Positions 9,807 to 56,800 of a DNA stretch of 64,000 nt are shown one piece after another; within the stretch, counting starts at the first letter, position 1, and each line of letters opens with the position of its first letter. This DNA comes from Armatimonadota bacterium (GTDB lineage Bacteria; Armatimonadota; DTGP01; JAKQQT01). The position numbers were made by a program, and so were the translations under genes. Location of the stretch: contig DASXVS010000023.1 in NCBI GenBank assembly GCA_036504095.1, positions 1 through 64,000 of the forward strand. Direction: 5' to 3'. Under the pieces are notes generated by a model. That model saw only the letters and a program-made list of their open reading frames with translations. It was not told the origin of the DNA and ran no database searches.

Positions 9807-9844
9807 GTCTGGGGCGCTCTCATACTCACCAGAATACGCGCCAA

Positions 9845-9940: not shown

Positions 9941-9973
9941 TGACTCACCGTTTTGCCCGCCAACCGGAGCCGC

Positions 9974-12206: not shown

Positions 12207-12240
12207 GACGCCTTGGGTAGTATAGGGCACAGCTGCGCGG

Positions 12241-29552: not shown

Positions 29553-30227
29553 TCAGGCGCCGGCGCGAGGGCCAGGCAGATACTGTTTGATGACTGGGTA
29601 AACGGAACGGAGGAAGTCCAGGGCGGCTCGCTCCGCCTGAACGCCCTCTTCGTCCGATTCCTCCAAGGGCATTACGATGCGCACCATGGCTGTGTCGCTG
29701 CGCTGGTAGCGCAGCGAATCGGCCACCAGGAAAACTTTGGCCATGTACTCGCTGGCAACCGAGCGATAGGGTGTCAGATACCAGTAGTAGACCAGGCTCC
29801 TGGAGTTGCCTTTGCCGACGATGTAGCGATTGACATTGACGGGTTCGGGCGAGCCGGGCACGTCGATGTTGACGATGGAACTGGATTTCTGCACCCAGCC
29901 GTTGGCCGGCAGGCAGTGCTTGGGTGAGTGCGGGGCGACGCCGGTGCGCTGCGTGCGGAAGAACGCGATGTACAGATTGGCGGGCGCGGCATAAGCCGGA
30001 TTCTGGTAGTTGCGGACCAGCGTCCCATCGGCTTTGAGTTCGTCCTGCACTTCCTTTTCCATGGGGAAATCCTGTACGCCGTGCCAGGCGCCCGCGGTTT
30101 GGGATAGGCCGTCGAGGGGGTTGAGCTGCGGCACGTATTCGGTCCTTTGCACCGAATGGTGGGCGATGATGGCGGCCAGCAGCAGCAAGGCTCCGGCGAG
30201 GAAATGGGGCCCGCGGAAGATGCCCAT
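29553..30227 (-). CDS. epsI: EpsI family protein (exosortase-associated)
   Basis: 224 residues with one N-terminal membrane helix (FLAGALLLLAAIIAHHSV), so mostly periplasmic. It has the EpsI features: GLSQTAGAWHGVQDFPM, an Arg/Tyr-rich middle (YIAFFRTQRTGVAPHSPKHC), LPANGW and VYYWYLTPYRSV. EpsI-like proteins are encoded beside, or fused to, exosortases and are needed for EPS export/PEP-CTERM systems, but their biochemistry is unclear. The start overlaps the exosortase stop by one base (TGATG). Confidence 0.88.
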   Translation of the reverse strand: MGIFRGPHFLAGALLLLAAIIAHHSVQRTEYVPQLNPLDGLSQTAGAWHGVQDFPMEKEVQDELKADGTLVRNYQNPAYAAPANLYIAFFRTQRTGVAPHSPKHCLPANGWVQKSSSIVNIDVPGSPEPVNVNRYIVGKGNSRSLVYYWYLTPYRSVASEYMAKVFLVADSLRYQRSDTAMVRIVMPLEESDEEGVQAERAALDFLRSVYPVIKQYLPGPRAGA

Positions 30228-31096
30228 CAGGCGCTCTCCGGGCGTGTGGCGGTGTGCCGTCGGCGGCTAATTACATCCAGGGTTCGATGAAGAACCACCA
30301 GAGCAGTCAGTGCAACCATGAAGATAACCCAGCCTTCAAGACTATGATAAATCCCCTCCGACCACTCCCGCTTGTACTCGCTGAGGACGCCTGTGATTGT
30401 GACGCGAAAGGCGTTGGCGGCGATGGCAATAGGGATGGTGGAAGAAAACAGCGTGACGCGTATCCAGAGGCGCTTGTCGAAGGCATAGCCGTAGATCAGG
30501 GACAGGAAGGTGAGCGAGAGCAGGGAGCGGATGCCCGAACACGCCTCCACGACGCTAAGTCTCTGGCTGGGCAGTTCCAGGACGTTGCCATCCCGCAGAA
30601 CAGGGATGCCGACGATACCTAACCCGATCTCCGCCACTTGTGAGGCCAGTAACTGGAGAGGGAACGTGATCTGGTTGTAGAGGATTGTGGGCCAGCGAAC
30701 CATAAAGCAGAGCAGCACAAGCGGAAAGATGAGCGCCCGCAGCATGGCAGTGCCGGCGGTGAGCAGAATAATGCCGATCAGGCCGACGATAAAGGCGGTT
30801 CTGGCAAGAAAATACTCCGCCCCCAGTTCGGCCACTACCAACTGGGTAAACGCCATGAGCAGCACGATCCAACCCGTCCACGAGGGCCGGATCGGAATCT
30901 GCGCCAGCTTGTCGCGTTGGGTCCAAATCACCCAACCCACGACGAAGGGCACGAACAGGCCGTGGCCCATCTCCTCCAACCGGAACCATTCGTCCACCAT
31001 CTTGAACAGTACGTTCCAGAACAGTGCGGCCAGGAGCAGAGCAAGAACGGCAGTTCTCGCCAAGACAGACGGCATCTGTTTTGCAGTCATCGACAA
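30227..31096 (-). CDS. xrt: exosortase (PEP-CTERM transpeptidase/protease)
   Basis: 289 residues with about eight hydrophobic membrane segments. The catalytic signature is complete: Cys186 in VVEACSGIRSLLSL, Arg231 in NAFRVT and His251 in GIYHSLEGW. The N-terminal EEMGHGLFVPFVVGW (about 41-55) is also typical. It would cleave PEP-CTERM proteins at the inner membrane, with the proteins at 1.1 and 19.5 kb as candidate substrates. A 170-bp gap separates it from the VanZ-like gene, so it may have its own promoter. Which exosortase subtype it is cannot be told here. Confidence 0.9.
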   Translation of the reverse strand: MSMTAKQMPSVLARTAVLALLLAALFWNVLFKMVDEWFRLEEMGHGLFVPFVVGWVIWTQRDKLAQIPIRPSWTGWIVLLMAFTQLVVAELGAEYFLARTAFIVGLIGIILLTAGTAMLRALIFPLVLLCFMVRWPTILYNQITFPLQLLASQVAEIGLGIVGIPVLRDGNVLELPSQRLSVVEACSGIRSLLSLTFLSLIYGYAFDKRLWIRVTLFSSTIPIAIAANAFRVTITGVLSEYKREWSEGIYHSLEGWVIFMVALTALVVLHRTLDVISRRRHTATRPESA

Positions 31097-35185: not shown

Positions 35186-35703
35186 CGGTGCAGTTCCCGG
35201 ATGGGCGATGTCTGACCGGCGTCTCGTTGGGTGGCGTGGCCATCGGGACCGAGCCGATGTTCCGTTCCAAGCAGGCGGATGTTAATACGGTGGTGAGGGT
35301 CGGATTGTCGTGTGTACTGAGATGATTTGCAGTCGGCTGCGGCCCTCGGGTGGCATCTGGCTGGAGAAAACGGTCGTTGCCGCGAGCTGGCTGTGGCTGA
35401 GTAAGGGCAGCGAGTACCGAACTGCAGTGCGCGAATACCTAGTACGTAGATAGCGGTGACCGCTCGTGGGTGGGTGAATCTGCCAGTCTGGAGAGTGGAT
35501 GCGGTGACCGTTGGATTTGTTGTGAGTGGGGCTCGGATGTGACGTCGATAACGGTGCTGTCGGCCCAAGCGCTTCGCCATGAGCGATGGTCCATAATGGG
35601 GCAAGGGGCCGCAATGGAGACAGAGCAACGAGTCGGACTCTCGACATCGACTGTTTCAGTTTGGGCGTAATGGGCTTGGTTCGCTTACGGGGTGACGGTG
35701 ACA
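35186..35703. other. intergenic region without a gene
   Basis: About 500 bp between the barrel gene and the heparinase-like gene. No start/ribosome-site pairing or protein-like frame is convincing on either strand. It must contain the promoter of the large downstream gene unless that gene is read through. Confidence 0.4.
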
Positions 35704-38700
35704 ATGATGAAGCTCTCTTTGCTGTGTTGGATCGTGTCGGTACCACTCTTGGCGCAGACCACTTTGTACGTCCCAACGGGCCAGACGCGGTGCGTGGCGT
35801 CGGCAACGAATGCAACGCCAATCGTTATTTCAACAGCGGGCTGCGACAATACATCGCTCGCTGCGGCCACGCCCGCGCTAGTTGCGCACGGCTGGACGAA
35901 TGGCACAGTCATTGTTCTGGCTGGGGTGGAAGGCAACACGGCCGCGAATGGCACTCGAGTGGCGACCAACGTGACCGAGACGACGGCGGAACTGTATGAC
36001 TTGGCTGGTGCTCCAGTGGCGGGTAACGGCGAATTCCTGCGGTACACGGGTGGACAGGGCACCAGCTATCCGGAAGCGGCGGCGGGTTCGCTGGTGACGT
36101 TGAAAGATCACCCGCGCGTGTGGCTGGACGGCCCGGGGGGCGCGCTGACTTCGACGCTTTGCACCCACGGGCGCCGCGATTGCAAGGCGGTTTCGAGTAA
36201 CCCGGCCTACGCTGCCATGAAAACAGCCATCGACGGGCGCGTGCTCACCGCTGACACCGCAGCGCCAAGCGAGATGCTGATTGCCCAGCTACAGAACGGA
36301 GATTTCGGGTATCTGGGCGGGGCGGCGTTGATGTACCAGTCAACCGGAAACACGGCCTACCGGGACAAGGCCATCGCCGCGCTCAACAACATCGACAAGT
36401 ACGCCAAGGGTTTCGGGTGTCTCACCGAACAGATCTCCGCCTGTGGCGACTCCATCACGCTGGACTACGGCAGTAAATATATGTGGAACATCGCGCAGGC
36501 GTACTCGATTGTGCGCTCTGGGATGACCTCGGGCGAGCGCACTGTGTTTGTTAACAAGATGCTGACCGACGTGGATGATGGATGCACAAGCCGCTTCTAC
36601 GCGGGCACGGGCACCGTGAACTACACGCTCTACGCCAAGACCATCACCGGCAACGGCACGCAGTGGCTGACAAACGCCGACACGACACAGCGGATAGCGA
36701 CGGGTGACTCGATCGGGTGGACGGCAGGATGCACGTCGGGCTACTGCGTGGGCATGACGATGATCGTCAAGTCGGTGGAGTCCGACACTTCGTTAACCAT
36801 TCAGGGCTCCCCTACTGGAGGGTTTCTCGCCACGAGTGCGACGGACGGGCCTTTCTGGATCGGCAAGCCGTGGACGACTGGGAACTGTGGGTTTGTGAAT
36901 TTCATCAATTACTCCGGGTACTCTCCAATCGCAAGCGGGAAGGCGCATGGAAACTCATACCTAAGTGGCGCGGCATCTAGCTTTGGCGGGGCAACGATCT
37001 ACTCCCGCGACGAGTCGAGCCGAAACGAACTCTACAACCAGAACATCACGAAGGGCCTCGGCTTTTTGGCCCTGGCAATTGCCCTGGCTGACGACGACCC
37101 TAGGGCGCAGGCTATGTTGCAGCGGCTGGTTTTCTGGTGGAAAGACTTCTGGTATCCGCTCCAGAAGCAATGGACGACGGGCGCAATGCAGATCACGGCG
37201 AAGTACTACGCCACTCGCGTTCAGCCGTTCACCGCCGACTTCGCTATCCAACTTCGAAACAGCTTCTACGAACCGAGCATGGACTTCACGGGCGGGACGT
37301 GGCTGAAAACCCCACTGTCCCTGTGGGTCTACGGCTACAGTCGGGCAGACAACCGTAGTATCCGATGGGGCGGGCCTGCGCCTGTAGCCATGACGGCTGA
37401 TCACTGGAAGGGTGGCTTGGCATCGGCGTATCTCACGCCGGGGAGCGATGAATCGAAAGCATGGCTCCACATCCTGAAGAACTACACAGGGTACTACCTG
37501 CCAGCGGAGACGCAATTCGGCTACGCCAACATGCTCGGCTACCCCGACAACTACCTCTACAGCGACCCGACTGCGCCTACGGCAGACCCGAATACGACAC
37601 TGCCGCTGTCCCGAAATCTAACAGTTTCCGATTCTCAGCCGAATGGCGAGGGCACTGGGCTAGTGATCTCGCGAACTGGCTGGCTGGCCGATTCCAGTAT
37701 TTTCGAGATTCACGCGCTGAGTGAATTTCGGTTCTCCAGTCTGTACGGAACGAGCTACTCCGGTGATCCGGCCAGCTATAAGATTTTCAAACGACACTAC
37801 CTACTGGCTGAGGACTATGGTAGGGGCATTCAGCCCACGTTTACGGCCTACGGTGCTCCGAACGAGCAGAGCAACTTCATGCGGATCGGACCGTATCTCA
37901 GCAATTCACCGTCACTACTCCAACGGGCAAACTTCAAGTCGCAGATCCAGTTCGTCAGGACTTCACGATTCTGGAACGATCCCAGCAACGCGGCCACCTA
38001 CGCGATGGTGGACTATGCGGGGGCGTATCAGGCGGCCGCTCAGATCACATTCGCGCACCGGCACTTTGCGCACTTCAAGAAGTTGGGTAGAAGCGAGTAC
38101 ATCATTGCCGCCGACGCGGTGCGAACCAGCGGCGGGCAGCAGAAGGTGACGTACCTGCACTACCCGAATAACGGGCAGTCGGGGGTTTTCGAGAACGGGT
38201 CTACGCCGTGGCCGGCCAACGGGGCTGAAGGCAATACGGTGTTGACGGACGATTCGCTTGTGTCCAGCGGGCCGGCGTCGAGGATCCTGACCAAGGTATT
38301 GAAGCCGGGCGGCGCGACCTCGCTGCGTGTCTATACGGACAATCCGGACGGATCATACACGGGCACGGTTGATCCGGCGAAGGGGCCGCTAGGTGGGGTG
38401 GGGCAGACCTTCCGAGTATCGATCTGCGCCTCGGCTGATGGCGTCACCTGCGACGCCTCGAATCTGAAGACGAATGTGCTGGTAGCGCATCGCGTGGTGG
38501 ACGGCACGACGGAGACCGCGAATCCGGTGGCGCTGCTGTCCGCGATCGACCCTAACTTCATCGGCGCACAGGTGGACGACGGAGCGAACTCCATTGTGGC
38601 CGTCTTTCCGGCGGAGGGCATCACGCTCTCGGCGGCGGCATTCACGACAACGCATTCCGACGCCGGGCAGTACCTGGTGAGCGGGCTGACCGCGGGGCTC

Positions 38701-40221
38701 TGGTCAATTTCCAGAGACGGGGCCGTGATTACGGCGGCCGCGAACGTGGATAGCAGCGGAACATTGTATTGGGAGGGAGGCGCAGGAGCGTATGTTCTGA
38801 TTCGGACGGGCGCGGGGCCGCTGAGCGTGGCGACGGGGAGTTTGCCGCCAGCGCTGCTGAACGGTAGCTATTTCTTTCCTTTGGTGGCGCTGGGCGGGAC
38901 CCCGCCCTATCAATGGAGCGTGACCTCCGGCCGCCTGCCGGATGGCGTGAGCCTGTCACCGGCAGGCCTACTCTCCGGCACGGCCACGCTGAGCGGCGAC
39001 TTCGCGTTCACGGTGAGTGTGGACGACAGTGACGGGCAAAGCGTCACGAAGGATTTGATGCTGACGGTGGGGACGACGCCGCTGAGGATTCTGACGAGCG
39101 TGCTGGGCGGCGGCGTGGTGGGGCGTCCTTACCAGGCGTCCTTACTGGTTGGGGGGGGAGTGCCGCCCTACGCCTGGACCACAGTGAGCGGAACACTGTG
39201 TGGCGGACTGTCATTGGTGAGCGACGGCATAATCAGCGGTCAACCGCTGCAGGTGGAGACGTGCGCGTTTCGAGTGCGGGTGACCGACCAGGGCGGCCTG
39301 TCGGCGGAGCGTGATCTGGAGTTGAGCGTCGTGGCCGAAAATTCGCTATCTATTTTGACGACTAGCCTACCGGATGGGAAGAGCGGCAGTGACTACATGG
39401 TGCAACTGACGGGCAGTGGCGGGGTAACGCCGCTGCAGTGGTCGATCAGCGCTGGGAATTTGCCGGATGGATTGCAGTTGGACGAGGACACTGGGATCAT
39501 TTCCGGAATACCCGCCTCTGCGGGTCAGTGGGCGTTCACGGCGCAGCTGACGGACAGCTCCACACCGAGCCTGCAGGTGGCACAGGACTTGAGCATTACG
39601 GTAACGCCGGACGTTCCGGAGCTGGCGTTAGTGTCGCAGGAACTGCCAGTGGTTCAGGCCGGCTCGGATTGCCGGACGGCGATTCAGGCGCTGGGCGGAG
39701 TGCCGCCGCACCAATTTCAGGCGACCCGGCAGAGTCTGCCGACGGGGATGACGCTCTCGGCGGCGGGCCTGTTAAACGGGCGGCCGGCGGCGGCGGGTGT
39801 GCCGCGATTGGAGTTGGCCGACGCGACGGAAGGGTCGCTGCTGTTGCGATATGGCGGGGCGGGGCTGCGATGGGCGGCTTTCGGGCCGGGTCTGGGGCTG
39901 ACGCTGAACCGGTTGTACTATGCGCGAGTGAGTTGCGGCGGGGCGGCCGCCGCACTGGCAGCGGCTACGCGGTCGGCGGGCAGGGCGGGCACGGGTGCGG
40001 CGAAGCTGGCGGTAAAGGCTCCAGCCGGGGTAGATAAGCTGCGCGTGGATTACGGGGGCACGGCGGCGCTCGGCGCCCGGCTGGAGACGACGTGCGTGGC
40101 TGGGCGGTGCGGGGCGTCGATTCCCGCGGTTTCGGGCCAGCCGTTGTGCCACCAGAGCGCCTATCTCTCGGGCAGCCAGGTGGTGCGGGTGTCGAAGCCG
40201 GCGGTATTGCTGGCGCGATAA
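35704..40221 (+). CDS. giant secreted heparinase II/III-like protein with Ig-like repeat tail
   Basis: About 1505 residues; the ATG at 35704 precedes a signal peptide (LSLLCWIVSVPLLAQ). Residues about 20-990 form a core shared, collinear, with the protein at 59.2-63.1 kb. An alpha-helical part (DHPRVWLDGP, NGDFGYLGGAALMYQSTG, ITKGLGFLALAIALADDDPRA) is followed by a beta-sheet part (GTGLVISRTGWLADSSIFEIH, QITFAHRHFAHFKK), the layout of heparinase II/III-type polysaccharide lyases. The last 400 residues hold four putative-Ig repeats (GGTPPYQWSVTSG, LPDGVSLSPAGLLSGT). It is probably an exported polysaccharide-degrading or -binding protein; catalytic residues were not identified. Confidence 0.72.
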   Translation: MMKLSLLCWIVSVPLLAQTTLYVPTGQTRCVASATNATPIVISTAGCDNTSLAAATPALVAHGWTNGTVIVLAGVEGNTAANGTRVATNVTETTAELYDLAGAPVAGNGEFLRYTGGQGTSYPEAAAGSLVTLKDHPRVWLDGPGGALTSTLCTHGRRDCKAVSSNPAYAAMKTAIDGRVLTADTAAPSEMLIAQLQNGDFGYLGGAALMYQSTGNTAYRDKAIAALNNIDKYAKGFGCLTEQISACGDSITLDYGSKYMWNIAQAYSIVRSGMTSGERTVFVNKMLTDVDDGCTSRFYAGTGTVNYTLYAKTITGNGTQWLTNADTTQRIATGDSIGWTAGCTSGYCVGMTMIVKSVESDTSLTIQGSPTGGFLATSATDGPFWIGKPWTTGNCGFVNFINYSGYSPIASGKAHGNSYLSGAASSFGGATIYSRDESSRNELYNQNITKGLGFLALAIALADDDPRAQAMLQRLVFWWKDFWYPLQKQWTTGAMQITAKYYATRVQPFTADFAIQLRNSFYEPSMDFTGGTWLKTPLSLWVYGYSRADNRSIRWGGPAPVAMTADHWKGGLASAYLTPGSDESKAWLHILKNYTGYYLPAETQFGYANMLGYPDNYLYSDPTAPTADPNTTLPLSRNLTVSDSQPNGEGTGLVISRTGWLADSSIFEIHALSEFRFSSLYGTSYSGDPASYKIFKRHYLLAEDYGRGIQPTFTAYGAPNEQSNFMRIGPYLSNSPSLLQRANFKSQIQFVRTSRFWNDPSNAATYAMVDYAGAYQAAAQITFAHRHFAHFKKLGRSEYIIAADAVRTSGGQQKVTYLHYPNNGQSGVFENGSTPWPANGAEGNTVLTDDSLVSSGPASRILTKVLKPGGATSLRVYTDNPDGSYTGTVDPAKGPLGGVGQTFRVSICASADGVTCDASNLKTNVLVAHRVVDGTTETANPVALLSAIDPNFIGAQVDDGANSIVAVFPAEGITLSAAAFTTTHSDAGQYLVSGLTAGLWSISRDGAVITAAANVDSSGTLYWEGGAGAYVLIRTGAGPLSVATGSLPPALLNGSYFFPLVALGGTPPYQWSVTSGRLPDGVSLSPAGLLSGTATLSGDFAFTVSVDDSDGQSVTKDLMLTVGTTPLRILTSVLGGGVVGRPYQASLLVGGGVPPYAWTTVSGTLCGGLSLVSDGIISGQPLQVETCAFRVRVTDQGGLSAERDLELSVVAENSLSILTTSLPDGKSGSDYMVQLTGSGGVTPLQWSISAGNLPDGLQLDEDTGIISGIPASAGQWAFTAQLTDSSTPSLQVAQDLSITVTPDVPELALVSQELPVVQAGSDCRTAIQALGGVPPHQFQATRQSLPTGMTLSAAGLLNGRPAAAGVPRLELADATEGSLLLRYGGAGLRWAAFGPGLGLTLNRLYYARVSCGGAAAALAAATRSAGRAGTGAAKLAVKAPAGVDKLRVDYGGTAALGARLETTCVAGRCGASIPAVSGQPLCHQSAYLSGSQVVRVSKPAVLLAR
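35773..36136 (+). repeat. 364-nt inverted repeat copy A (gene-conversion tract)
   Basis: This part of the heparinase-like gene is almost identical at the nucleotide level to 61883-62246 on the other strand: same length, only a few substitutions seen, no gaps. The flanking parts of the two genes differ much more. Confidence 0.85.
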
Positions 40222-40365: not shown

Positions 40366-42084
40366 ATGGAGGCAGTGACTTTTCGCGCTGAACTGATCAG
40401 CCGGCTGGAGAAGAACCTCCACAAGGTTCTTCTGCGGATAGTATTGTCACCGGACTTGGAGAAGCCCGTTGAGTTTACGGGCGGAATGATCCTGGAACAG
40501 GCGCGCGCCGCGGCCCGGCGTTATGCCGTGGTGGACAAGCCGGGGGTGGTGCTGTTGCTGCTGCCGCACTCCCTGGAGCTGTTTCTTCTGCATTTAGGCT
40601 TGGTGCTGGAAGGTTGGCTGCCGGCGATTCTCCCGTGGCCGACGAGCCGCATGGACCCGGCGAAGTATCAGCGCAACCTCCTGCATCAATTACGCAACCT
40701 GCCGGCGCAGCAACTGATCACGCTGCCCAGGCTGGTGAGCAATCTGGCGGCGGGCCTGCCGTTTCCGGCCACGGCATGCACGGTGCCAGGCTGCGAAGCT
40801 CTGGAGCGGGCGTACGAGATTCCGCTGCCGCTGGAGAGTGCCGGGGACGGTGTGAAGGCGGGGCTGGATACGCAGCCGCCATCTGATTCCCTGTTCCTGC
40901 AGTTTTCGGGCGGGACGACGGGCGCGCAAAAAGCGGTAGTCGTGACAGCTCCGATGATGGCATCGCAGATGGACCGGCTGCGCGATGCGTTGGGGTTCGA
41001 CAGCTCCGATGGAGTAGCCTCCTGGCTGCCGATGTATCACGACATGGGGCTGATTGCGTGTCTCTGGTTTCCGCTGTGGCACGGGGCGGCGTCCACGCAG
41101 ATCAGCGCCAGCGACTGGCTGCTGGCGCCGGATCTGCTGTTCTCCTACCTGGACCGTTACCAGGCGACCTATTGCTGGCTGCCGAATTTCGCGTTCTCCT
41201 ATCTGGCTGGCCAGCGCGGGCGAATGAACGGGCCTTACCGGCTGGGGCACGTTCGTGGATTTGTGAACTGTTCCGAGCCAGTGAGGGCGCGTTCGATGAA
41301 CGCTTTCGCCGACACATTCGCCGATTGGGGCGTGCGGCGAACGGCGCCGCAGGCATCCTACGCGATGGCGGAGAATGTCTTTGCCGTGACACAGACTCCA
41401 ATGGGCGAAGAGCCACGGCAGACGCCGCGAAGTGGGCTGCGGCATGCGGCCAAGAGCTACCCGCCGCTGGCATTCGACATGCTCGACGAAACCTATGTGT
41501 CCAGCGGCGCCGTTTTGGAAAGCATGGAAGTGCGGATTCGCGGTGTGAACGGCGACGACTGCGCGGAACGCGAACCGGGCGAGATTCTAATCCGGAGCGA
41601 GGCGTTGTTTTCCGGCTATTGGGGGTCGCAGGGGTTCCTGACGTCGTCGATCTCGGCGGACGGCTGGTACTCCACGGGCGACTACGGATTTATGGAGGCC
41701 GGCCATCTTTACGTGATCGGGCGGCTGAAGGACATCGTGATCGTCGGCGGCCAGAACATCTTTCCGGAAGACGTGGAGGCTGTGGTCAACGCGTTGCCGG
41801 GCGTGTATCCGGGGCGAGTGGTGGCGTTTGGCGTGGTTGACGAAGTCAACGGAACGGAAGCGCTGGCGGTGGTGGCGGAGATGCGGGGCGAGTGGGGGGC
41901 AGCGGCGGCAAAGCGGATGGAGCGAGAGATGCAGCAGGGCATCATGGCCGCCATCGGAATCGCGCCGCGCTATACGGGAGCGGTGCCGGAGCGCTGGATT
42001 GTGAAGAGTACAGCCGGCAAGATTTCGCGACGCGACACACGCGAGCGTTTTCTGACCGAGAAGCTGCGCCGTCAGCCCCAATAG
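40366..42084 (+). CDS. acyl-AMP ligase (fatty-acyl-AMP-ligase-like)
   Basis: About 572 residues from ATG 40366, with GGGGAGG very close upstream; ATG 40354 is an alternative. It is an ANL-superfamily adenylating enzyme with FSGGTTGAQKAVVVT (A3/P-loop), WLPMYHDMGLIACLWFPLWHG (the MYHDMGL motif characteristic of FAALs), NCSEPVRARSMNAF, GEILIRSEALFSGYWG, YSTGDYGFMEAGHLYVIGRLKDIVIVGGQNIFPEDVE and a C-terminal lysine in STAGKISRRD. The HDMGL and RLKDxIIxxGxNxxPxDIE-like features favour an acyl-AMP ligase that hands its acyl group to a carrier protein. The carrier is encoded 30 bp downstream. Confidence 0.85.
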   Translation: MEAVTFRAELISRLEKNLHKVLLRIVLSPDLEKPVEFTGGMILEQARAAARRYAVVDKPGVVLLLLPHSLELFLLHLGLVLEGWLPAILPWPTSRMDPAKYQRNLLHQLRNLPAQQLITLPRLVSNLAAGLPFPATACTVPGCEALERAYEIPLPLESAGDGVKAGLDTQPPSDSLFLQFSGGTTGAQKAVVVTAPMMASQMDRLRDALGFDSSDGVASWLPMYHDMGLIACLWFPLWHGAASTQISASDWLLAPDLLFSYLDRYQATYCWLPNFAFSYLAGQRGRMNGPYRLGHVRGFVNCSEPVRARSMNAFADTFADWGVRRTAPQASYAMAENVFAVTQTPMGEEPRQTPRSGLRHAAKSYPPLAFDMLDETYVSSGAVLESMEVRIRGVNGDDCAEREPGEILIRSEALFSGYWGSQGFLTSSISADGWYSTGDYGFMEAGHLYVIGRLKDIVIVGGQNIFPEDVEAVVNALPGVYPGRVVAFGVVDEVNGTEALAVVAEMRGEWGAAAAKRMEREMQQGIMAAIGIAPRYTGAVPERWIVKSTAGKISRRDTRERFLTEKLRRQPQ

Positions 42085-42116
42085 TTCGTGAACGAGATCG
42101 GAGTACGAGGTAATTC

Positions 42117-42365
42117 ATGCTGGATGAGTCTACTATCCGTGAAGCAGCCCGGGCCGTTGTGCAGTCGATGACGGGCGCGTTGGTGGCTGACGACGAGGCG
42201 CTGATCTCATCGGGGCTGATCGACTCACTGTCGATTCTGAAGCTGATCGGGCAACTGGAAGAACGCCTGAACATCGCTATTCCGGCGGCGCAATTGCAGC
42301 CTGACGATTTTGAAAACGTGGACTGGATTGTGGACACGGTGGGGAGGGTGGGCAAGGCTCGATGA
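42117..42365 (+). CDS. acyl carrier protein
   Basis: 82 residues with the phosphopantetheine site LISSGLIDSLSILKLI, Ser37 being the attachment residue. The four-helix pattern is complete (IREAARAVVQSM, LKLIGQLEERLNI, VDWIVDTVGRV). A short purine-rich site precedes the ATG. It ends with an ATGA overlap to the SGNH gene. It would carry the acyl group made by the upstream ligase to the membrane acyltransferase. Confidence 0.9.
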   Translation: MLDESTIREAARAVVQSMTGALVADDEALISSGLIDSLSILKLIGQLEERLNIAIPAAQLQPDDFENVDWIVDTVGRVGKAR

Positions 42366-43543
42366 GTCCTGGGCGCGCCGCCGGCGTGTTGCTGCCGTTG
42401 ACAGCCATGGCGCTGGCGGGACTGCTGTGGGCCAGGCCGTTTGCGGCAGTGAACTTCGCGCTGGACCACCTAGTAGGCGCCGCGCCGGAGTGGACGCAGG
42501 TCAAGACGCTGCTGCGCGATCCGCAGCGGCATGAGACGACATCGGGCGAACTGGCGCGGCAAAGTTACGAGACCCTGTCCCGTTTCTGGGGGCCGCAGAC
42601 GGGCCGCCGGCGCGTGGTATTCGCGGGCAACTCGCAGATGATGACCATGAGCCTGGCCCCAGGGGAAGCGCGCCCCGGACCGGTGGAAAAGACCTATTTT
42701 GATACTCTGTACGACAGCCTGTCGGAAAAGGCGGGCGCTCCGCTCTGCTACCGGTTGGCGGCAGGCGGGCTGACGTACGAGGAAGTGCTTTTCAATCTGC
42801 ACTATTTCCTCGGCCGTCCGGAGTTGAAGCCGGACGTGCTGGTGCTGCAGATCAACTACCAGGCATTCCGCATGGGCGGCATCCGCGAAGGGCTGACTGA
42901 TCTGCTGGCCAACCCGGCGATGCACGCCGCAGCGGAGGAAGAAGCGGCATCGGGCGCGCTGTACGCCGACGAGTTCCGCTCGACGCTGGATCGTTTCGCG
43001 CAGAAGGCGGCGGAATCAGCAGGCGGGACCGGAGCCCAGGAGGGGCCGGTGGTTCTTGGCGCCCGCCTGGAGCGCCAGTTCCGCGACGCCGCCAAGCACT
43101 CCAACTTGATGGCGGCGCGCCATATCCAGAAGGAAGAGTTTCTAGATGTGCTCTACCGGCTACGGCTCTACGTTTTGCAGTTGAAGCCGAGCACGGCACG
43201 CTCGATTGCCGGTTCACGGCTGTCGCGGAACCGGAGTTGCCTGGAGCGCATTGCGACTTTGTGCCAGTCTCAGAACGTGAAGCTGGTTCTGTTTCTGGCG
43301 CCGGTGAACCCGCGGGTCCTCCTGTTCAGCTCGGAGGAAGACAAGCTCTCCTATCGCGGCTACGTCACGGAACTGGCCGAGCGCTTCCACCTGAGCCTGT
43401 ATGATTTTGAAGCGGCGATTCCTGAGCAATACTGGGGCTCGTATTACAACGCGCCAGACCCACTGCACATGGGCCGCCGCGGGCATGAATTATTTGCGGC
43501 CACACTACAACCGGCCGTGGAAAAGGCGCTGAGCCTCCCGTAA
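42362..43543 (+). CDS. SGNH/DltD-like O-acyltransferase partner
   Basis: 393 residues. An N-terminal hydrophobic segment (residues 5-25) anchors it with the rest outside. SGNH-type blocks: GNSQMM at 89-94 (candidate nucleophile Ser91), LVLQINYQAFRMGG at about 160 and the late DPLHMGRRGHELFA with Asp366 and His369 (the D-x-x-H block). This is the AlgJ/AlgX/DltD type of companion to an MBOAT, which moves acyl groups onto an exported polymer. It sits between the carrier protein and the MBOAT, exactly as in Dlt-type operons. Confidence 0.72.
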   Translation: MSPGRAAGVLLPLTAMALAGLLWARPFAAVNFALDHLVGAAPEWTQVKTLLRDPQRHETTSGELARQSYETLSRFWGPQTGRRRVVFAGNSQMMTMSLAPGEARPGPVEKTYFDTLYDSLSEKAGAPLCYRLAAGGLTYEEVLFNLHYFLGRPELKPDVLVLQINYQAFRMGGIREGLTDLLANPAMHAAAEEEAASGALYADEFRSTLDRFAQKAAESAGGTGAQEGPVVLGARLERQFRDAAKHSNLMAARHIQKEEFLDVLYRLRLYVLQLKPSTARSIAGSRLSRNRSCLERIATLCQSQNVKLVLFLAPVNPRVLLFSSEEDKLSYRGYVTELAERFHLSLYDFEAAIPEQYWGSYYNAPDPLHMGRRGHELFAATLQPAVEKALSLP

Positions 43544-43549
43544 CGCGAA

Positions 43550-44998
43550 ATGCAGTTCAACTCCTATTCCTACCTGGTCCTACTGATTCCGGTGACTGTT
43601 CTGTTCTGGAATCTTCCGGTGGCTTGGCGCAAGTGGTACCTGCTGGCCGTGAGCGCCGCTTTCTATGCCAGTTGGAGCGTCACGTACGCGGCCATTCCCT
43701 ACGCGCTGATCGGGATGTCGTGGCTGGTGGCACGGCGTATGATTGGCGCGTCGACAGAGAAAGACAAATCGTTCTGGCTGACTGTGGGTATCGCGGCCGT
43801 GTTGGCGGTGCTGGCATTCTTCAAATACCGCGACTTCGCGCTGGTTAACATGAGCATGATGCTGGCGGCGTTGGGGGCGGCGCCGATCCACACGACGCTC
43901 CAGCTCGCGCTCCCGTTGGGCATCTCGTTTTACGCCTTTGAGGCGGTGAGCTATCTGATCGACACGCGCCAGGGCAGGGTGCGTGATGCGCGGTTCCAGG
44001 ATCTAGCCCTGTTTGTGACATTCTGGCCGCACATGATCGCCGGACCGATTGTACGCGTCCGCGAGTTTTTCCCGCAGATTGAAAAGCCGAAGCCTTTCAG
44101 CACGTTGCTGTTGGTAGAGGGCTGCGACCGGCTGTTGTGGGGACTGGTGCAGAAGAACCTGATTGCGAACAACCTGGCCGGATGGGTCAGCGAGGGCTTT
44201 CTACCGCAGGCCGCGGCGGCCAACTCGACGCTGGACAATTGGGCTCTGACAGTGGGGTTCGGCCTGCAGATTTACTTCGATTTCGCATCCTATTCGAACA
44301 TGGCGATCGGCGCATCCCGGCTGGTGGGCATCGTACTGCCGGAGAACTTCCGGTTCCCGTATCACGCAGCCAGTCCGCCTGATTTCTGGGGTCGCTGGCA
44401 CATGACGCTGTCACGCTGGATTCGCGACTATCTGTTCTTCCCGGTGAATGCAAAGTACAAGGGCGCGCAGGGGCCGCTGTACTTGAGCTTGTTGGGGATT
44501 ATGGCCTTGGTCGGGTTGTGGCACGGGGCGGGGTGGGGTTTTATGCTGTGGGGCCTGTTCCACGGCGTGTATCTCGCACTGTACCGGATGTGGGAACACG
44601 TGACTGAGACGCGTTACCCGCAGTGGGCGAAATCGGCCGCCTGGGGCTGGTTCTGGCGTGTGTTCATCCTGGCGGGTGCGATGCTGGCCTGGGTTCCGTT
44701 CCGGTCCAGTTCCCTGGGCCAGACGGTGACGCTGCTGAAGTCCATGCTCTTTTCGTTCCGGTTCCATGTCTCCTACAGCTTGAATTTCTACCTGACCGTT
44801 GCGTTGGTATCGCTGTTCTGCATGCTGGAGCCGTGGCTTTGCAAGCAGTTGCGGCGGCGGCTGGTGCCGCAGGGCGCCGCGGCGCCCTGGCCGGTCTGGA
44901 ACATCGCCTTGGCCCGGCCCATGATCTACGCCGGCGCGCTGCTATTGTTTCTGATCTTCGACGATAAAGATGTGCAGTTCATCTACTTCCAGTTCTGA
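43550..44998 (+). CDS. MBOAT family O-acyltransferase (AlgI/DltB-like)
   Basis: 482 residues, about eleven membrane helices. Catalytic His325 is in GLWHGAGW and the second conserved His284 in GRWHMTLSRWIRDYLFFP. ISFYAFEAVSYLIDTRQG and FVTFWPHMIAGPIVR are typical of the AlgI/DltB group. With an acyl-AMP ligase, carrier protein and SGNH protein just upstream, it is likely to take acyl groups from the carrier protein in the cytoplasm and pass them through the membrane for attachment to EPS. The acyl group is not known. Confidence 0.9.
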   Translation: MQFNSYSYLVLLIPVTVLFWNLPVAWRKWYLLAVSAAFYASWSVTYAAIPYALIGMSWLVARRMIGASTEKDKSFWLTVGIAAVLAVLAFFKYRDFALVNMSMMLAALGAAPIHTTLQLALPLGISFYAFEAVSYLIDTRQGRVRDARFQDLALFVTFWPHMIAGPIVRVREFFPQIEKPKPFSTLLLVEGCDRLLWGLVQKNLIANNLAGWVSEGFLPQAAAANSTLDNWALTVGFGLQIYFDFASYSNMAIGASRLVGIVLPENFRFPYHAASPPDFWGRWHMTLSRWIRDYLFFPVNAKYKGAQGPLYLSLLGIMALVGLWHGAGWGFMLWGLFHGVYLALYRMWEHVTETRYPQWAKSAAWGWFWRVFILAGAMLAWVPFRSSSLGQTVTLLKSMLFSFRFHVSYSLNFYLTVALVSLFCMLEPWLCKQLRRRLVPQGAAAPWPVWNIALARPMIYAGALLLFLIFDDKDVQFIYFQF

Positions 44999-45034: not shown

Positions 45035-47449
45035 ATGACAACAACCAGGCGGAACTTTCTCATTCCGTTGGCGGCCTCTCCAGCGCTGGTCTGCTGCCAG
45101 GGCGCGCCGCGAGCGCAAAGTTCCGGCGGGCCGCGCCCCGGCGGCAAGGTGAGCGCGGCGGAGAATGCTGCGGCGTCGAGGCTGGATCAGTGGCGGATTC
45201 TCGGACCTGGCGGCGGCGGGGCGATGTTCTTTCCCGTTGTCAGCCCGCACGATCCAAAGCTAATGATGGTCTGCACCGACATGGGCGGTGTGTTTCTGAG
45301 CCGGGATGGCGGGCAGTCCTGGCGCTCGATCCAGCTACGGACCAAGGCGTTCTGGATGGCCTTTCATCCGGTGAATCCGCGGCGGCTGCTCATCAGCAAC
45401 CGGGTTGGCCTCTATGAGAGCCTCGACCAGGGCGTGACATGGTCTCTCTTCTATCCGGACCCCGCCCAGGTGCGTGGCTTGCAGTACAGCGACTACGGAC
45501 CTAGCCTGAGTCTGGTTCTGGCCAAGGGCACGGCGGGCGGGGCGACAACGATGGTGATTGACCCGCAGGACGCGGAGACGATCTTCATCACCGATGGCCG
45601 CATCCTGACTGCGACGGCCAACGGGGGAAAGAGCTGGAGAGCGCTGGCGACGCTGCCGGTACGGGCGCAGGCGATATACCTGGACCGCAATAGCACGCGC
45701 GGCAACCGCAGGCTGTTTCTTGTGGTGCACGGCCCGGCGCCTCTGGCGATCTACGAAGACGGCAAGCTGAGGCTGACGGAGCCGGCCAAGGCGGGAGAGT
45801 GGGTCACCAGCTCCGCCTGCGCCTTTCCGCCCGGAGGAGGACCGCCGGTGCTGTACGTGACCGCCGATTATCAAAAAGACGCGCAAGGGCGGCCGTTTGG
45901 CGGGCTGATCGTGACTCGCGATCTGGGGCGGACGTGGTCGCTGGGGCTGAATAACCTGCTCACGGAGCGTTCACAGCCTGACGCTTGGCCCCAGGTGACG
46001 GCCGTGGCGGCAGATGATTCGGGTGTTGCCTATGTCTCGCTGTCGCGTCTGAGCACCGCCGGGGATGCGCGCTCTTTGTTTCTGGGTGTCGGCAAATCGA
46101 CTGACTCCGGCCAGACGTGGCGGCTTGTCTGGAAGGAGAACAACCAGAAGCTGGCGGCTAATGTAGAAGACCCGTGGATCACGGAGCGGTTTGGCGCGGA
46201 GTGGGGCGAGAATCCGTTGAGCATGACGATTGCTCCAGGCGGGAGCGGCGTCGTGTTGGGCACCGATTACGGCCGGCTGATGCGGTCAGTGGACGGCGGC
46301 AAGAGCTGGAAGGGTGTCTACAGCAAGCGTCTGGAGGATGGCTCGCACACCAGCACCGGCCTGGACGTGACAGCTTGTTCCGGAGTGCACTTCGATCCGT
46401 TCGACAAACAGAGGATCTTCCTCTCCTGCTTCGACATCGGCCTGCTGATGAGCGAGAACAGCGGGGGGAGCTGGCGCAGCACGACGAAGAACGGCGTACC
46501 GCAGGAGTGGTGGAACACCGCCTACTGGATGGAGTTCGATCCCTCAGTGAAAGGGCGGATGTGGGCGGCGGTGAGTCGGAATCACGAACTGCCGCAATAT
46601 AGCGTCTTCAGCCGCGGAACCGGCGGGTTGAAGGGCGGAGTGGTGACGAGCGACGACGGCGGATGGAGCTGGCGGGCCAGCAGCGTGGGCCTTCCTCAGA
46701 TGGCGGTAACACATCTGCTGGTGGACCCGAAAAGCCGGCCCGGACAGCGGACGGTCTACGTGACCGGATTTGGGCGCGGCGTCTACCGGTCCACCGATAA
46801 CGGAGAGTCCTGGACCTCGGTCAATCAGGGACTTCCGCCGGGCGAGAACCGGGCCTGGCGTCTGGCAATGGACAAGGACGGCACGCTCTATGTCGTGCTT
46901 TATCGCAGATCCATTGACGACAAATTCGGCGGCGATGACGACGGCATGGTGTTCCGATCCAAGGACCAGGGTGGGAGTTGGCAGAGGATTGCGCTGCCGG
47001 CGGGATTCAACGGACCGACGGGCATCGCCATCGACCCAAGGACACCAAACCGGCTGTATCTGTCTGCTTGGGGGCGGGCGAAGCCCTACGATCTCCGGAA
47101 GAACGACGGGGGCGTGTGGAGTTCCTCCGACGGCGGCCTGACTTGGCGGAACGTATTGAGCAAGTGCCAGCATGTCTATAGCGTGACGGTGGACGACACC
47201 CGACCGGATGTTGTGTACGCGGCGGGCTATGAATCGTCCATCTGGCGATCAGACGACGGCGGAGGTAATTGGGCGAGAATCCGCGGTTTCAATTTCCAGG
47301 CGGCCAACCGGGTGATTCCGGACCCGCACAGCCCTGGCATGATCTACGTCACGACGTCGGGCAGCAGTGTTTGGCATGGCCCGTCGGCGGGAGATCCGGC
47401 TGCGGCGGAAGACCTGACAGGGCCGCCGGTGCTCCGGTATTCCGGATGA
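45035..47449 (+). CDS. Tat-exported BNR/VPS10-type beta-propeller protein
   Basis: 804 residues. The twin-arginine leader TTTRRNFLIPLAASPALV with a Cys pair suggests Tat export. The body is made of beta-propeller blades with Asp-box motifs (SRDGGQSWRSI, ESLDQGVTWSLF, TANGGKSWRAL, RSVDGGKSWKGV, SENSGGSWRST, SDDGGWSWRAS, STDNGESWTSV, SKDQGGSWQRI, SSDGGLTWRNV, SDDGGGNWARI), giving two seven-bladed-like units as in GH74 enzymes and sortilin-type domains. Position between MBOAT and Wzy suggests action on the EPS. Catalytic residues were not assigned. Confidence 0.75.
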   Translation: MTTTRRNFLIPLAASPALVCCQGAPRAQSSGGPRPGGKVSAAENAAASRLDQWRILGPGGGGAMFFPVVSPHDPKLMMVCTDMGGVFLSRDGGQSWRSIQLRTKAFWMAFHPVNPRRLLISNRVGLYESLDQGVTWSLFYPDPAQVRGLQYSDYGPSLSLVLAKGTAGGATTMVIDPQDAETIFITDGRILTATANGGKSWRALATLPVRAQAIYLDRNSTRGNRRLFLVVHGPAPLAIYEDGKLRLTEPAKAGEWVTSSACAFPPGGGPPVLYVTADYQKDAQGRPFGGLIVTRDLGRTWSLGLNNLLTERSQPDAWPQVTAVAADDSGVAYVSLSRLSTAGDARSLFLGVGKSTDSGQTWRLVWKENNQKLAANVEDPWITERFGAEWGENPLSMTIAPGGSGVVLGTDYGRLMRSVDGGKSWKGVYSKRLEDGSHTSTGLDVTACSGVHFDPFDKQRIFLSCFDIGLLMSENSGGSWRSTTKNGVPQEWWNTAYWMEFDPSVKGRMWAAVSRNHELPQYSVFSRGTGGLKGGVVTSDDGGWSWRASSVGLPQMAVTHLLVDPKSRPGQRTVYVTGFGRGVYRSTDNGESWTSVNQGLPPGENRAWRLAMDKDGTLYVVLYRRSIDDKFGGDDDGMVFRSKDQGGSWQRIALPAGFNGPTGIAIDPRTPNRLYLSAWGRAKPYDLRKNDGGVWSSSDGGLTWRNVLSKCQHVYSVTVDDTRPDVVYAAGYESSIWRSDDGGGNWARIRGFNFQAANRVIPDPHSPGMIYVTTSGSSVWHGPSAGDPAAAEDLTGPPVLRYSG

Positions 47450-47506
47450 CAGCATCCACCTGGCAGGCTGTTCAACTATCATAGAAAAGCGGCGTTTCCC
47501 CCCTCC

Positions 47507-48802
47507 ATGGGCTTCATCATCACAACTGCAGTTATTGTTCTGCTCTACCTTTCGCCCGCGGCCACAATTCCGTGGCTGGCGCAGTATGGCTTCATGCCGG
47601 CGTTAATTGTATTGGGGTGTTTGGTCACCGTGGTGGGCTTCCTGGGAAGCCGCCTGTCGTTCACCGAGCCACAGATCATCCTGCTGCTGTTTTTTTGCGG
47701 GTGGACCACGATCAGCCCGGCGCTGCATGGCTGGGTGGGCGGCTTGGCGCCGACGTTCATGAAGATGATTTTCCCGGCCGTGGCGTTTCTGATGGTGCTG
47801 GCGAATGTGACCACTCTGCCGCGATTCCGCCTGTTCAGCGGCGCGATGGTAGCGGTGTCAGTCTACCTGGCCATTCGCGCGGTGATGGCCTTCCACTACG
47901 GCATCGACCGCGAAACCTACACAATGGAGCAGTTCACGGAACAGAGCGAGGGCATGGAAGAACGCGAGGTCTTCTATCGCGCCTGCGGCCCCGGTTTTCT
48001 GGCCGATCCCAATGACTTCGCTCAGCACCTGACGCTGTCCATCGCGCTGTTGGGCGCCATCTGGAGGCCCCGTTCTCCGTTCCGGAATCTGCTTCTGATA
48101 TTTGTCCCGCTGGTGATCATGTCCTATGGCATCTACATCACAGCTTCGCGCGGCGCTCTGCTGGGTATCTTTCTGTTGCTGGCGTTTGCGCTGAAAGACC
48201 GCCTGGGGATAGGCGGCCCCGTCTTGGGCGGCGCTATCGTGGTGGGACTGGTGACCTTTTTGGGATTTGGAGGCGGGCGGGCCATCTCGGTCTCATCCGG
48301 CAGCGGCGGCGGGCGCATGGATATCTGGTCTGACGCGCTATTCGCCTTTATGTCCTTCCCGTTCCGCGGCGTCGGTTTCGGTTCCATCCGCGATTACACC
48401 TACCTGACCGCTCACAACACGCTGTTGCTGTGCTTTACGGAGTTGGGCCTGATCGGCTACTTTTTCTTCGTGGGATTATTTGTGCTGACGCTTTGGCAGC
48501 TGCAGAGCGTGTTGAGACTGGTGCCGGCCGGCGTGCCCGCCAATACGGACACCTTGCGCGCAGTCAAGACGATCCGCAATTCGATCATCCTGTTTCTGGC
48601 TACCGGCCTGTTTCTATCCCGTACCTACGTGATCACGCCGTATGTGCTGCTGGGCCTCGGACTGGCCGTGTTCCTGATGGAAAGGGGCAAAGAAGGCTCG
48701 CCGGTGGCTGCGATCAAAGTGCCATGGGTGAAATACACCCTGATCAGCATGGCATCCAGTATCGTCCTGATCTATCTGGCTGTGCGCCTGCATTGGCTAT
48801 GA
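47507..48802 (+). CDS. wzy: O-antigen ligase/polymerase-like (Wzy/WaaL) membrane protein
   Basis: 431 residues, about twelve membrane helices. The Wzy_C-type features are a large periplasmic loop (YGIDRETYTMEQFTEQSEG to RACGPGFLADPNDFA) and TASRGALLGIFLLLAFAL, the SRGA motif of this family. A second HN-containing loop (LTAHNTLLLCFTELGLIG) follows at about 305. It would polymerise EPS repeat units at the periplasmic face. The ATG of the next gene overlaps its stop. Confidence 0.82.
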   Translation: MGFIITTAVIVLLYLSPAATIPWLAQYGFMPALIVLGCLVTVVGFLGSRLSFTEPQIILLLFFCGWTTISPALHGWVGGLAPTFMKMIFPAVAFLMVLANVTTLPRFRLFSGAMVAVSVYLAIRAVMAFHYGIDRETYTMEQFTEQSEGMEEREVFYRACGPGFLADPNDFAQHLTLSIALLGAIWRPRSPFRNLLLIFVPLVIMSYGIYITASRGALLGIFLLLAFALKDRLGIGGPVLGGAIVVGLVTFLGFGGGRAISVSSGSGGGRMDIWSDALFAFMSFPFRGVGFGSIRDYTYLTAHNTLLLCFTELGLIGYFFFVGLFVLTLWQLQSVLRLVPAGVPANTDTLRAVKTIRNSIILFLATGLFLSRTYVITPYVLLGLGLAVFLMERGKEGSPVAAIKVPWVKYTLISMASSIVLIYLAVRLHWL

Positions 48803-49890
48803 TGACACCCAACCTCTCCGGACAGTGGGCCGCGAAACTGCCTAGTCGGATTCCCTCGCTCGATGGGCTGCGCGCCATCAGTATCCTACTGGTGATTCTG
48901 GGCCACTCCGTCTCGAAACTCAGCCATCCGAAGGCCTATCAACTGCTGGGCCACTTCGGCAACCTAGGCGTGAAGGCCTTCTTCCTGATTTCCGGATTTC
49001 TGATCACCACGCTGCTGCTGAAGGAGTGGGACAAGTCCGGCGGCGTCTCTCTGAAGAACTTCTACATCCGGCGGTCGCTGCGAATCTTCCCCGCGTTCTT
49101 GGTGTACGTGGGGGTGGTGGTTGTGTTGGAAGCGCGAGGTATGATCACACTGGAACCCGGCGACGTCCTCCACGCGCTCACCTACACGATGAACTATCAC
49201 ATGACCCGGGGCTGGGTTTTGAACCATCTGTGGTCGCTCTCGGTGGAGGAGCAGTTCTATCTGCTTTGGCCGGCCGTGCTGCTGCTGGCCGCGCCGGTGC
49301 GCGCGTGGAAATTCGTCCTGGCTGCGGTGGCCGTGGCGCCGCTGATTCGCGCCGTGATGTGGTTTGGCTTCGGCGCCGGTCCCACCGCGGTCAGCCGTCA
49401 TTTCGAGGCCGTCTGCGATGCCCTGGCCTGCGGCTGCGCGCTGGCGTTCTTTTATAACCGGCTAGGCGAACTGACGTGGTACACGCGGCTCATTCACGCC
49501 CGCTGGTATCTGCTGATTCCGCCCGCGCTGATGCTGATCGCCGCGCTGGGCCACAAGATCCATCCGTGGATCTACTACGTACCGGGCCAGACACTGGCCA
49601 ATTTCGGAATTCTCCTGCTGCTCGACCGCTGCATCCGCTATCCGGAGGATTGGTTTGGCGATCTGCTCAACTGGTCGATTTTCCGGTGGGTGGGCGTCAT
49701 CAGCTACTCGTTGTATCTGTGGCAGGAGTTGTTCCTGGACTACGAACCCGAGCACCTGGGCCTGACCTTGCCTTGGAACATGGTGCTCACCTTCGCGGTG
49801 AGCGCGGCCAGCTACTACCTGGTAGAGAAGCAATTCTTAAAGCTGAAGGAACGCGCCACCGGCCAGGCCAAGCGCCAGCCCGCAACATGA
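48799..49890 (+). CDS. acyltransferase 3 family (OafA-like) membrane O-acetyltransferase
   Basis: 363 residues from an ATG that overlaps the Wzy stop (ATGA); an upstream in-frame extension would run antiphase through Wzy and is discounted. It opens with RIPSLDGLRAISILLVILGHS, the catalytic Arg/His pattern of acyltransferase 3 enzymes, then FFLISGFLITTLLLKEW, FYIRRSLRIFPAFLVYVGVV and HLWSLSVEEQFYLLWPAVLLL. About ten membrane helices. It probably transfers acetyl (or other short acyl) groups to EPS sugars. Confidence 0.88.
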   Translation: MMTPNLSGQWAAKLPSRIPSLDGLRAISILLVILGHSVSKLSHPKAYQLLGHFGNLGVKAFFLISGFLITTLLLKEWDKSGGVSLKNFYIRRSLRIFPAFLVYVGVVVVLEARGMITLEPGDVLHALTYTMNYHMTRGWVLNHLWSLSVEEQFYLLWPAVLLLAAPVRAWKFVLAAVAVAPLIRAVMWFGFGAGPTAVSRHFEAVCDALACGCALAFFYNRLGELTWYTRLIHARWYLLIPPALMLIAALGHKIHPWIYYVPGQTLANFGILLLLDRCIRYPEDWFGDLLNWSIFRWVGVISYSLYLWQELFLDYEPEHLGLTLPWNMVLTFAVSAASYYLVEKQFLKLKERATGQAKRQPAT

Positions 49891-55476: not shown

Positions 55477-55579
55477 GGGCGGCGGCTTCGGCCGCGCGGA
55501 CGATCCCACCAAATCCGGGCCACCACCCGTCCCGGCTATACTGGTGAGGATCCTCAGTCTGGAGGATTGCCCCACGCGC

Positions 55580-56539: not shown

Positions 56540-56558
56540 AATTGAGGAGAACGACGAT

Positions 56559-56792
56559 ATGGAAGTCATGGAACAAGTCCGCCAGTTGATCTGCGGCATC
56601 ACCGGGCTGGCAGCCGATTTCGGCCCGGCCGCCAATCTCTACCAGGATCTGGGCGTGCCCTCTGTACACGCCATGCAGTTGTTGACCGAACTGGAAGAGA
56701 AATTTGAGATCGCCCTGCCCGATGACGAGTTCATCGAGGCAGTGACCTTGGAGAGTCTCACGGCGCTGGTAGCAAAGGTCAAGGGAGCCTGA
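56559..56792 (+). CDS. acyl/peptidyl carrier protein (second copy)
   Basis: 77 residues from ATG 56559, behind GAGGAGA; earlier in-frame ATGs overlap the GNAT end. The phosphopantetheine site is LGVPSVHAMQLL with Ser35; the Asp normally before it is replaced by Pro. NLYQDLGV and the helix LLTELEEKFEIALPDDEF are canonical. It is unlike the carrier at 42.1 kb in sequence, which argues for two different partners. The ligase gene follows 8 bp on. Confidence 0.85.
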   Translation: MEVMEQVRQLICGITGLAADFGPAANLYQDLGVPSVHAMQLLTELEEKFEIALPDDEFIEAVTLESLTALVAKVKGA

Positions 56793-56800
56793 TTTCGCTC

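Follow-up and report, generated by a model that had tools for sequence, protein, structure and literature searches.

The 64,000-nucleotide stretch analyzed here, which we refer to as the window (contig DASXVS010000023.1 of an Armatimonadota bacterium, positions 1 to 64,000), carries at 40366-44998 on the + strand four co-directional open reading frames (ORFs) lying back to back, the products of which are an acyl-AMP ligase of the FAAL type, a stand-alone acyl carrier protein (ACP), a membrane-anchored SGNH-like protein, and an MBOAT acyltransferase (Table 1). An earlier, sequence-only reading of this DNA had described the four genes as consecutive, with two of them joined by an ATGA overlap, and both observations stand: the ORFs are found at these positions, and the overlap unites the stop codon of the ACP gene with the start codon of the SGNH gene. 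Spacing within the cassette is 32 bp between ligase and ACP, -4 bp between ACP and SGNH, and 6 bp between SGNH and MBOAT, and the third-position G+C content (GC3) of all four genes falls inside the range of the remaining window genes. The four-gene set is real, Dlt-like but not Dlt, and represents a new, apparently undescribed form of MBOAT/SGNH acylation.

Table 1. The four-gene cassette and the genes that follow it (positions are those of the window)
Feature	Position	Strand	Details
FAAL-type acyl-AMP ligase	40366-42084	+	572 aa; PF00501 AMP-binding, 111 bits
Stand-alone acyl carrier protein (ACP)	42117-42365	+	82 aa; PF00550, 28.5 bits; Ser37 codon 42225-42227
ATGA stop/start overlap, ACP stop and SGNH ATG	42362-42365	+	sequence
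Membrane-anchored SGNH acyltransferase-like protein	42362-43543	+	393 aa; Ser91 codon 42632-42634; His369 codon 43466-43468
MBOAT acyltransferase	43550-44998	+	482 aa; PF03062, 67 bits; catalytic His325 codon 44522-44524
C-terminal acyl-shuttle hexapeptide FIYFQF of the MBOAT, Tyr479	44978-44995	+	sequence; matches FXYXXF of PatA/DltX
Downstream co-directional genes: Vps10/BNR-repeat protein, Wzy-like O-antigen ligase/polymerase, AT3 acyltransferase (at 48817)	45035-49890	+	Pfam

The top NCBIfam models for the cassette ligase are those of FAALs and fatty-acid ligases (PRK07768 at 269 bits, PRK09192 at 229 bits), and its best solved relative is EcFAAL (3pbk, E 3e-44). Characterized FAALs block coenzyme A (CoA) while admitting holo-ACP as the acceptor, and in EcFAAL the residues W224, M231, and F279, together with a FAAL-specific helix and Pro226, have been named as responsible for the rejection of CoA (PMC8460268). 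On alignment to EcFAAL (in which the PDB chain numbering is one less than that of PMC8460268), these pocket positions map onto W220, M227, F275, and P222 of the cassette ligase, giving it what appears to be the blocked CoA pocket of FAALs; the helix maps to S249-A254 (region 247-255), judged by sequence position only. The stretch from YAMAE to the next conserved Gly spans 44 residues, versus 26 in LIG2, the adenylation-domain (A-domain) ligase of a second carrier set in the window, and the ~18 extra residues align with the FAAL-specific insertion region of EcFAAL. The A10 lysine (Lys552) is present as well. Because both the FAAL insertion and the CoA-blocking positions are found in its sequence, the ligase is predicted to load the carrier rather than CoA, and the same insertion and pocket and helix positions uphold its earlier description as FAAL-like.

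For the SGNH-like protein, Pfam returns no match at 1e-3, the best being PF13472 (GDSL_2) with E 0.004, and the DltD family PF04914 does not match even at E 5. When compared by hhalign with a profile of MBOAT-adjacent SGNHs, the window protein scores 61.5, within the range of other true partners, whereas none of 60 shuffled controls exceeds 22.4 and the top-scoring proteins not recognized as MBOAT partners reach ~32. Across 19-20 MBOAT-partner SGNHs at 12-19% identity, the only columns invariant besides Met1 are those of G89, S91, D366, and H369, a second alignment giving the same result. With its N-terminal hydrophobic segment (residues 6-24) and its Ser91, Asp366, and His369, the protein has the membrane anchor and the Ser plus Asp-x-x-His arrangement of SGNH partners of the PatAB/AlgIJ type. 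An alignment-based structural model (mean predicted local distance difference test score, pLDDT, 62.7; predicted TM-score, pTM, 0.62) finds SGNH hydrolases as its best PDB matches by Foldseek (E 1e-5 to 1e-4), with DltD at ranks 16, 25, and 32 and the DltD structures 3bma and 6pfx at probability 1.00, although the rows of the underlying alignment are SGNHs themselves, so that the model shows consistency more than proof of the fold. A single-sequence model, independent of those rows, is weak (pLDDT 37.8), and its top Foldseek matches are, weakly, GDSL lipases. Profile comparison, the four invariant columns, and Foldseek thus support an SGNH acyltransferase-like protein as the product of 42362-43543, in line with its initial description as SGNH/DltD-like.

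The MBOAT carries its catalytic His325 within GLWHG, the histidine being invariant in the MBOAT alignment, and its nearest solved structure is DltB (6bug, E 4e-30). Toward the C-terminus, two hydrophobic segments (413-431 and 452-470) are followed by a terminal FIYFQF that the sequence-only reading had overlooked. The tyrosine of such an FXYXXF acyl shuttle is acylated in PatA, and in Dlt the shuttle is carried by a separate microprotein, DltX (PMC12148441). No DltX microprotein is encoded in the window cassette: the contiguous genes leave no room for one, and the hexapeptide instead forms the end of the MBOAT itself. Among 69 related MBOATs collected, 66 have FXYXXF at the C-terminus, the three exceptions being L089 (a contig end or a different end), L090 (Cys for Tyr), and L020 (without the tail). 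L090 is near-identical to L094, also from the window's phylum, and the two end in FLCFRF and FLYFRF, respectively, the shuttle tyrosine being a cysteine in one of the two genomes. Possessing both His325 and the C-terminal Tyr479 motif that characterize MBOATs of the PatAB/AlgIJ type, the window MBOAT is, on sequence grounds, of the fused-shuttle PatA/AlgI subtype and not a DltB.

The cassette ACP has its Ser37 in SSGLIDSL; this serine (within GLIDSL) is intact, and so is the MBOAT histidine, His325 (within GLWHG), both of which the sequence-only reading had named. The best-scoring model for the ACP is that of DltC (NF003464), yet at 32 bits versus a cut-off of 68; the DltB model TIGR04091 is likewise the best-scoring NCBIfam model for the MBOAT, but at 175 bits versus a cut-off of 375. 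While these two best matches, and the presence of DltD among the structural matches of the SGNH model, could be taken to indicate a divergent Dlt operon adding D-alanine or another amino acid, we hold this to be highly improbable, given that neither curated cut-off is reached, that the MBOAT carries the shuttle itself in place of a DltX, and that the ligase is FAAL-like, scoring only 78 bits with the amino-acid adenylation model TIGR01733 (cut-off 317) versus 348 for LIG2. Neither the DltA model nor that of the exosortase-associated ligase (TIGR03098) is among the 25 best NCBIfam models listed for the cassette ligase, and Dlt membership fails on all five features tested (DltA, DltB, DltC, DltD, and DltX). 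What survives of the Dlt-like logic proposed from the sequence is its core, an acyl-AMP ligase encoded together with carrier, MBOAT, and SGNH; what does not is a DltB-type MBOAT or the published Dlt layout. The combination of a carrier with a fused shuttle is instead a hybrid layout, as published PatA/AlgI-type systems are described without a carrier.

A scan of genome contigs with the window MBOAT gave 21 loci, including L014 from Chloroflexi RBG_19FT_COMBO_62_14, where an ACP (3041-3343), a FAAL (3340-5061; 37% identical), an AlgX-like SGNH (5113-6348), and an MBOAT ending in FIYGQF (6349-7788) form a quartet with a fused shuttle, like that of the window. The L014 ligase was searched in 400 sampled Chloroflexota genomes, with a match in 42, and 31 Chloroflexota loci with ligases 44-55% identical to it were read for same-strand neighbors. 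A carrier lies alongside the ligase at 26 of the 31 loci, a carrier and an MBOAT at 21, and the full MBOAT-SGNH-carrier-ligase quartet at 18, half of these (9/18) also holding a further SGNH-like lipoprotein. Linkage of the four genes in relatives, on which the sequence-only reading had staked its proposal beforehand, therefore holds at these 18 loci and in L014. The usual Chloroflexota order, MBOAT-SGNH-(lipoprotein)-ACP-FAAL, is the reverse of the window order, with the set kept. The chance of an MBOAT so close on the same strand is ~0.15-1.2% per locus, a yardstick only, the loci being related; because the same set recurs in Chloroflexota, a chance grouping of the four genes is excluded.

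The ligases of the window, L014, Leptolinea, and the Chloroflexota cassettes group apart from other FAALs with a Shimodaira-Hasegawa-like approximate likelihood ratio (SH-aLRT) support of 100, the window ligase sitting on a long branch within the group, and an (I/L)SSGLIDS motif is common to the window ACP and the carriers adjoining the Chloroflexota cassette ligases. The FAAL-carrier module thus occurs with two MBOAT types, one with the fused shuttle and the tail-less Chloroflexota type. Examples of a carrier with a fused-shuttle MBOAT number two with a FAAL (the window and L014), one with an A-domain ligase (L018), and several with FkbH. The A-domain/ACP/MBOAT set of L018 was rejected as a second recurrent type, the three ligase relatives in 395 same-phylum genomes having carriers and no MBOAT. 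The Leptolinea plasmid ligase L026 belongs to the same ligase clade but was rejected as a cassette, with no adjacent carrier and an MBOAT 34 kb away.

We consider it probable that the four genes constitute one transmembrane acylation line, passing an acyl group from FAAL to ACP to MBOAT to SGNH and then to an outside acceptor, most likely a polysaccharide. The ligase would adenylate a carboxylic acid, probably fatty or hydroxy-fatty, and load it onto the phosphopantetheine at ACP Ser37. The loaded ACP would then bind the MBOAT at its cytoplasmic face in the way that DltC docks on DltB, the delivery step that serves as our model (PMC9338922). With the help of His325, the MBOAT would next transfer the acyl group to the periplasmic side, onto Tyr479 in its C-terminal FIYFQF shuttle, and from the shuttle the group would pass to Ser91 in the membrane-anchored SGNH protein. 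The SGNH in turn would esterify an acceptor outside the cytoplasm, for which the polysaccharide of the surrounding exosortase/Wzx-Wzy locus is the likeliest candidate. The putative steps as far as Ser91 are drawn from characterized homologues (FAALs, DltC-DltB, PatA-PatB) and join what is directly seen, namely what the four genes encode, their intact catalytic residues, the shuttle motif and the FAAL marks in the sequence, and four-part linkage in other genomes; it is from gene context only that we infer a polysaccharide as the acceptor and the kind of acyl group transferred.

Tight gene packing with an ATGA overlap, the repeated co-occurrence of FAAL with carrier, SGNH, and MBOAT, and the carrier beside ligase plus MBOAT at 21 of the 31 Chloroflexota loci all argue against a different assignment of roles, in which the MBOAT and SGNH would form an ordinary polysaccharide O-acetyltransferase (AlgI/PatA type) supplied by acetyl-CoA, with the ligase and carrier serving another reaction, for example, cytoplasmic amino-sugar acylation or the feeding of the AT3 protein encoded at 48817. 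We judge this distinctly unlikely, even though most of the fused-shuttle MBOATs collected are paired with an SGNH but with neither a ligase nor a carrier, PatA has been shown to use acetyl-CoA (PMC12148441), and carrier/ligase sets without an MBOAT do exist, both in Bacteroidota (with GNATs) and at 55544-58357 in the window. MBOAT/SGNH pathways other than Dlt have been stated to lack a carrier protein, as acyl-CoA users (PMC12148441), and the built-in carrier and ligase suggest that the window MBOAT does not use acyl-CoA directly.

Within the proposed FAAL-to-SGNH line, an exopolysaccharide (EPS) acceptor is the least secure step, because the Chloroflexota loci read in detail are without exosortase/EPS context; the cassettes examined closely adjoin housekeeping-type genes (release-factor-like, FtsY-like) instead. 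This, and the fact that the cassette itself encodes no acceptor, would suit an otherwise identical line with another target, be it a lipid, a protein glycan of an exosortase substrate, or peptidoglycan, only the last step differing. The window cassette lies, however, inside a polysaccharide/exosortase locus and upstream of a Wzy-like gene, and a non-EPS target, while a serious contender, seems to us somewhat unlikely.

Several observations weigh against the acylation line as we have drawn it. The FXYXXF tail is present in none of the 21 Chloroflexota quartet-type MBOATs, which form their own clade and stop at the point where the window MBOAT enters its two C-terminal helices, and no small FXYXXF ORF was found at the Chloroflexota cassette loci; the two shuttle steps (MBOAT to Tyr, Tyr to SGNH) are accordingly not transferable to them. 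The window and L014 MBOATs both fall among the fused-shuttle MBOATs but are not sisters in the trees, which leave a common ancestry of the two unsupported; the quartet may therefore have been assembled more than once. Five of the 31 Chloroflexota ligase loci are without any cassette partner. Across 291 genomes of the window's phylum, MBOATs occur in 68 and FAAL relatives (E <= 1e-25) in five, including the window genome; FAAL is linked to MBOAT in no other of these genomes, and no ligase or SGNH relative adjoins an MBOAT elsewhere in the phylum. Finally, confidence in the SGNH model is middling, and its alignment rows are SGNHs. Separately, the SGNHs of Chloroflexota loci L152-L182 share NFFYPRW, loosely like F-X-Y-X-X-W, possibly by coincidence.

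Tentatively, and at a little less than an even call, we propose a separate, undescribed class of transmembrane acylation system, in which a FAAL loads a carrier of its own and this carrier supplies an MBOAT/SGNH pair. The system would be widespread among Chloroflexota, whose MBOAT is without the known shuttle, and would occur in a fused-shuttle form at an exosortase/EPS locus, there attaching a probably fatty, ACP-derived acyl group to an exported polysaccharide. Were this so, MBOAT/SGNH pairs would be a general outlet for varied carrier-charging enzymes (FAAL, A-domain, FkbH). The cassette and its Chloroflexota relatives indicate a carrier-fed version of MBOAT/SGNH, with a fatty-type ligase, well beyond Gram-positive Dlt, and if lipid-like esters do go onto exopolysaccharide, this would explain how these polymers could turn amphiphilic once exported. 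A defined four-gene set is now offered for testing, and how Chloroflexota MBOATs without an FXYXXF shuttle move the acyl group becomes a testable question.

As to the surroundings, the window encodes an exosortase and EpsI (29553-31096), a PEP-CTERM protein, nucleotide-sugar enzymes, Wzx- and Wzy-like proteins, and glycosyltransferases. The Vps10/BNR, Wzy-like, and AT3 genes downstream are possibly part of the same transcription unit as the cassette, and through the AT3 protein the locus may have a second route of acyl transfer. A second adenylation/carrier set, not mentioned in the sequence-only reading of the cassette, lies at 55544-58357 (+) and comprises a GNAT-like protein, an ACP with its serine in GVPSV rather than DSL, and the amino-acid-type LIG2, which scores 259 bits with DltA in addition to its 348 with TIGR01733, and 193 with TIGR03098 versus a cut-off of 592. 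GNAT/ACP/A-domain sets resembling it are present at two Bacteroidota loci (L192, L194). Heparinase II C-terminal-like domains occur in two large proteins flanking the locus, at 35692-40221 (+) and 59208-63140 (-), which are possible polysaccharide lyases. At 9192-12230 (-), a ParA-like partition ATPase and a DnaB-like helicase adjoin the polysaccharide locus and could be the trace of a plasmid or an integrated element. A TIGR03437 Solibacter C-terminal domain (62 bits) is found at 63431-63964 (-) and hints that the window is of acidobacterial origin.

Set beside known systems, the cassette shares with the Dlt pathway (DltXABCD, teichoic acid D-alanylation) an adenylating ligase, a stand-alone carrier, an MBOAT, and an SGNH encoded together, as well as the predicted logic of a carrier thioester as the MBOAT donor and an acyl-Tyr, then acyl-Ser relay (PMC12148441). 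It differs in having a FAAL-type ligase instead of DltA, a shuttle fused to the MBOAT instead of the DltX microprotein, and an exosortase/EPS setting. With the PatA/PatB and AlgI/AlgJ/AlgX O-acetyltransferases it has in common an MBOAT with the catalytic His and a C-terminal FXYXXF, and a membrane-anchored SGNH partner, whereas those systems are described without a carrier, PatA using acetyl-CoA (PMC12148441), and the window has a built-in carrier and FAAL. Like known FAALs (EcFAAL, FadD32, the PRK09192 group), the ligase has the AMP-binding fold, the insertion region, blocked CoA-pocket positions, and a tight pairing with an ACP; known FAALs, however, mainly feed polyketide synthases and nonribosomal peptide synthetases, and a 2025 review of them leaves MBOAT, O-acyltransferase, and polysaccharide unmentioned (PMC11837247). 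In the open-licence literature, the only literature searchable, we found neither a FAAL-fed MBOAT/SGNH system described nor anything relevant on FkbH with MBOAT.

A further parallel is offered by loci in which an FkbH-like HAD enzyme and an ACP stand beside MBOAT and SGNH-like genes, as in the cyanobacterial (Leptolyngbyaceae) L003 and L004, L020 of Phaeospirillum, and L021 and L022 of Paraburkholderia. FkbH-type HAD enzymes charge a carrier with a glyceryl-type group. These loci resemble the window in their carrier-fed MBOAT/SGNH pair, mostly with the fused FXYXXF tail, and differ in that the carrier would be charged by the FkbH-type enzyme and not by a ligase, which suggests that a carrier supplies a glyceryl-type group for attachment to a surface polymer.

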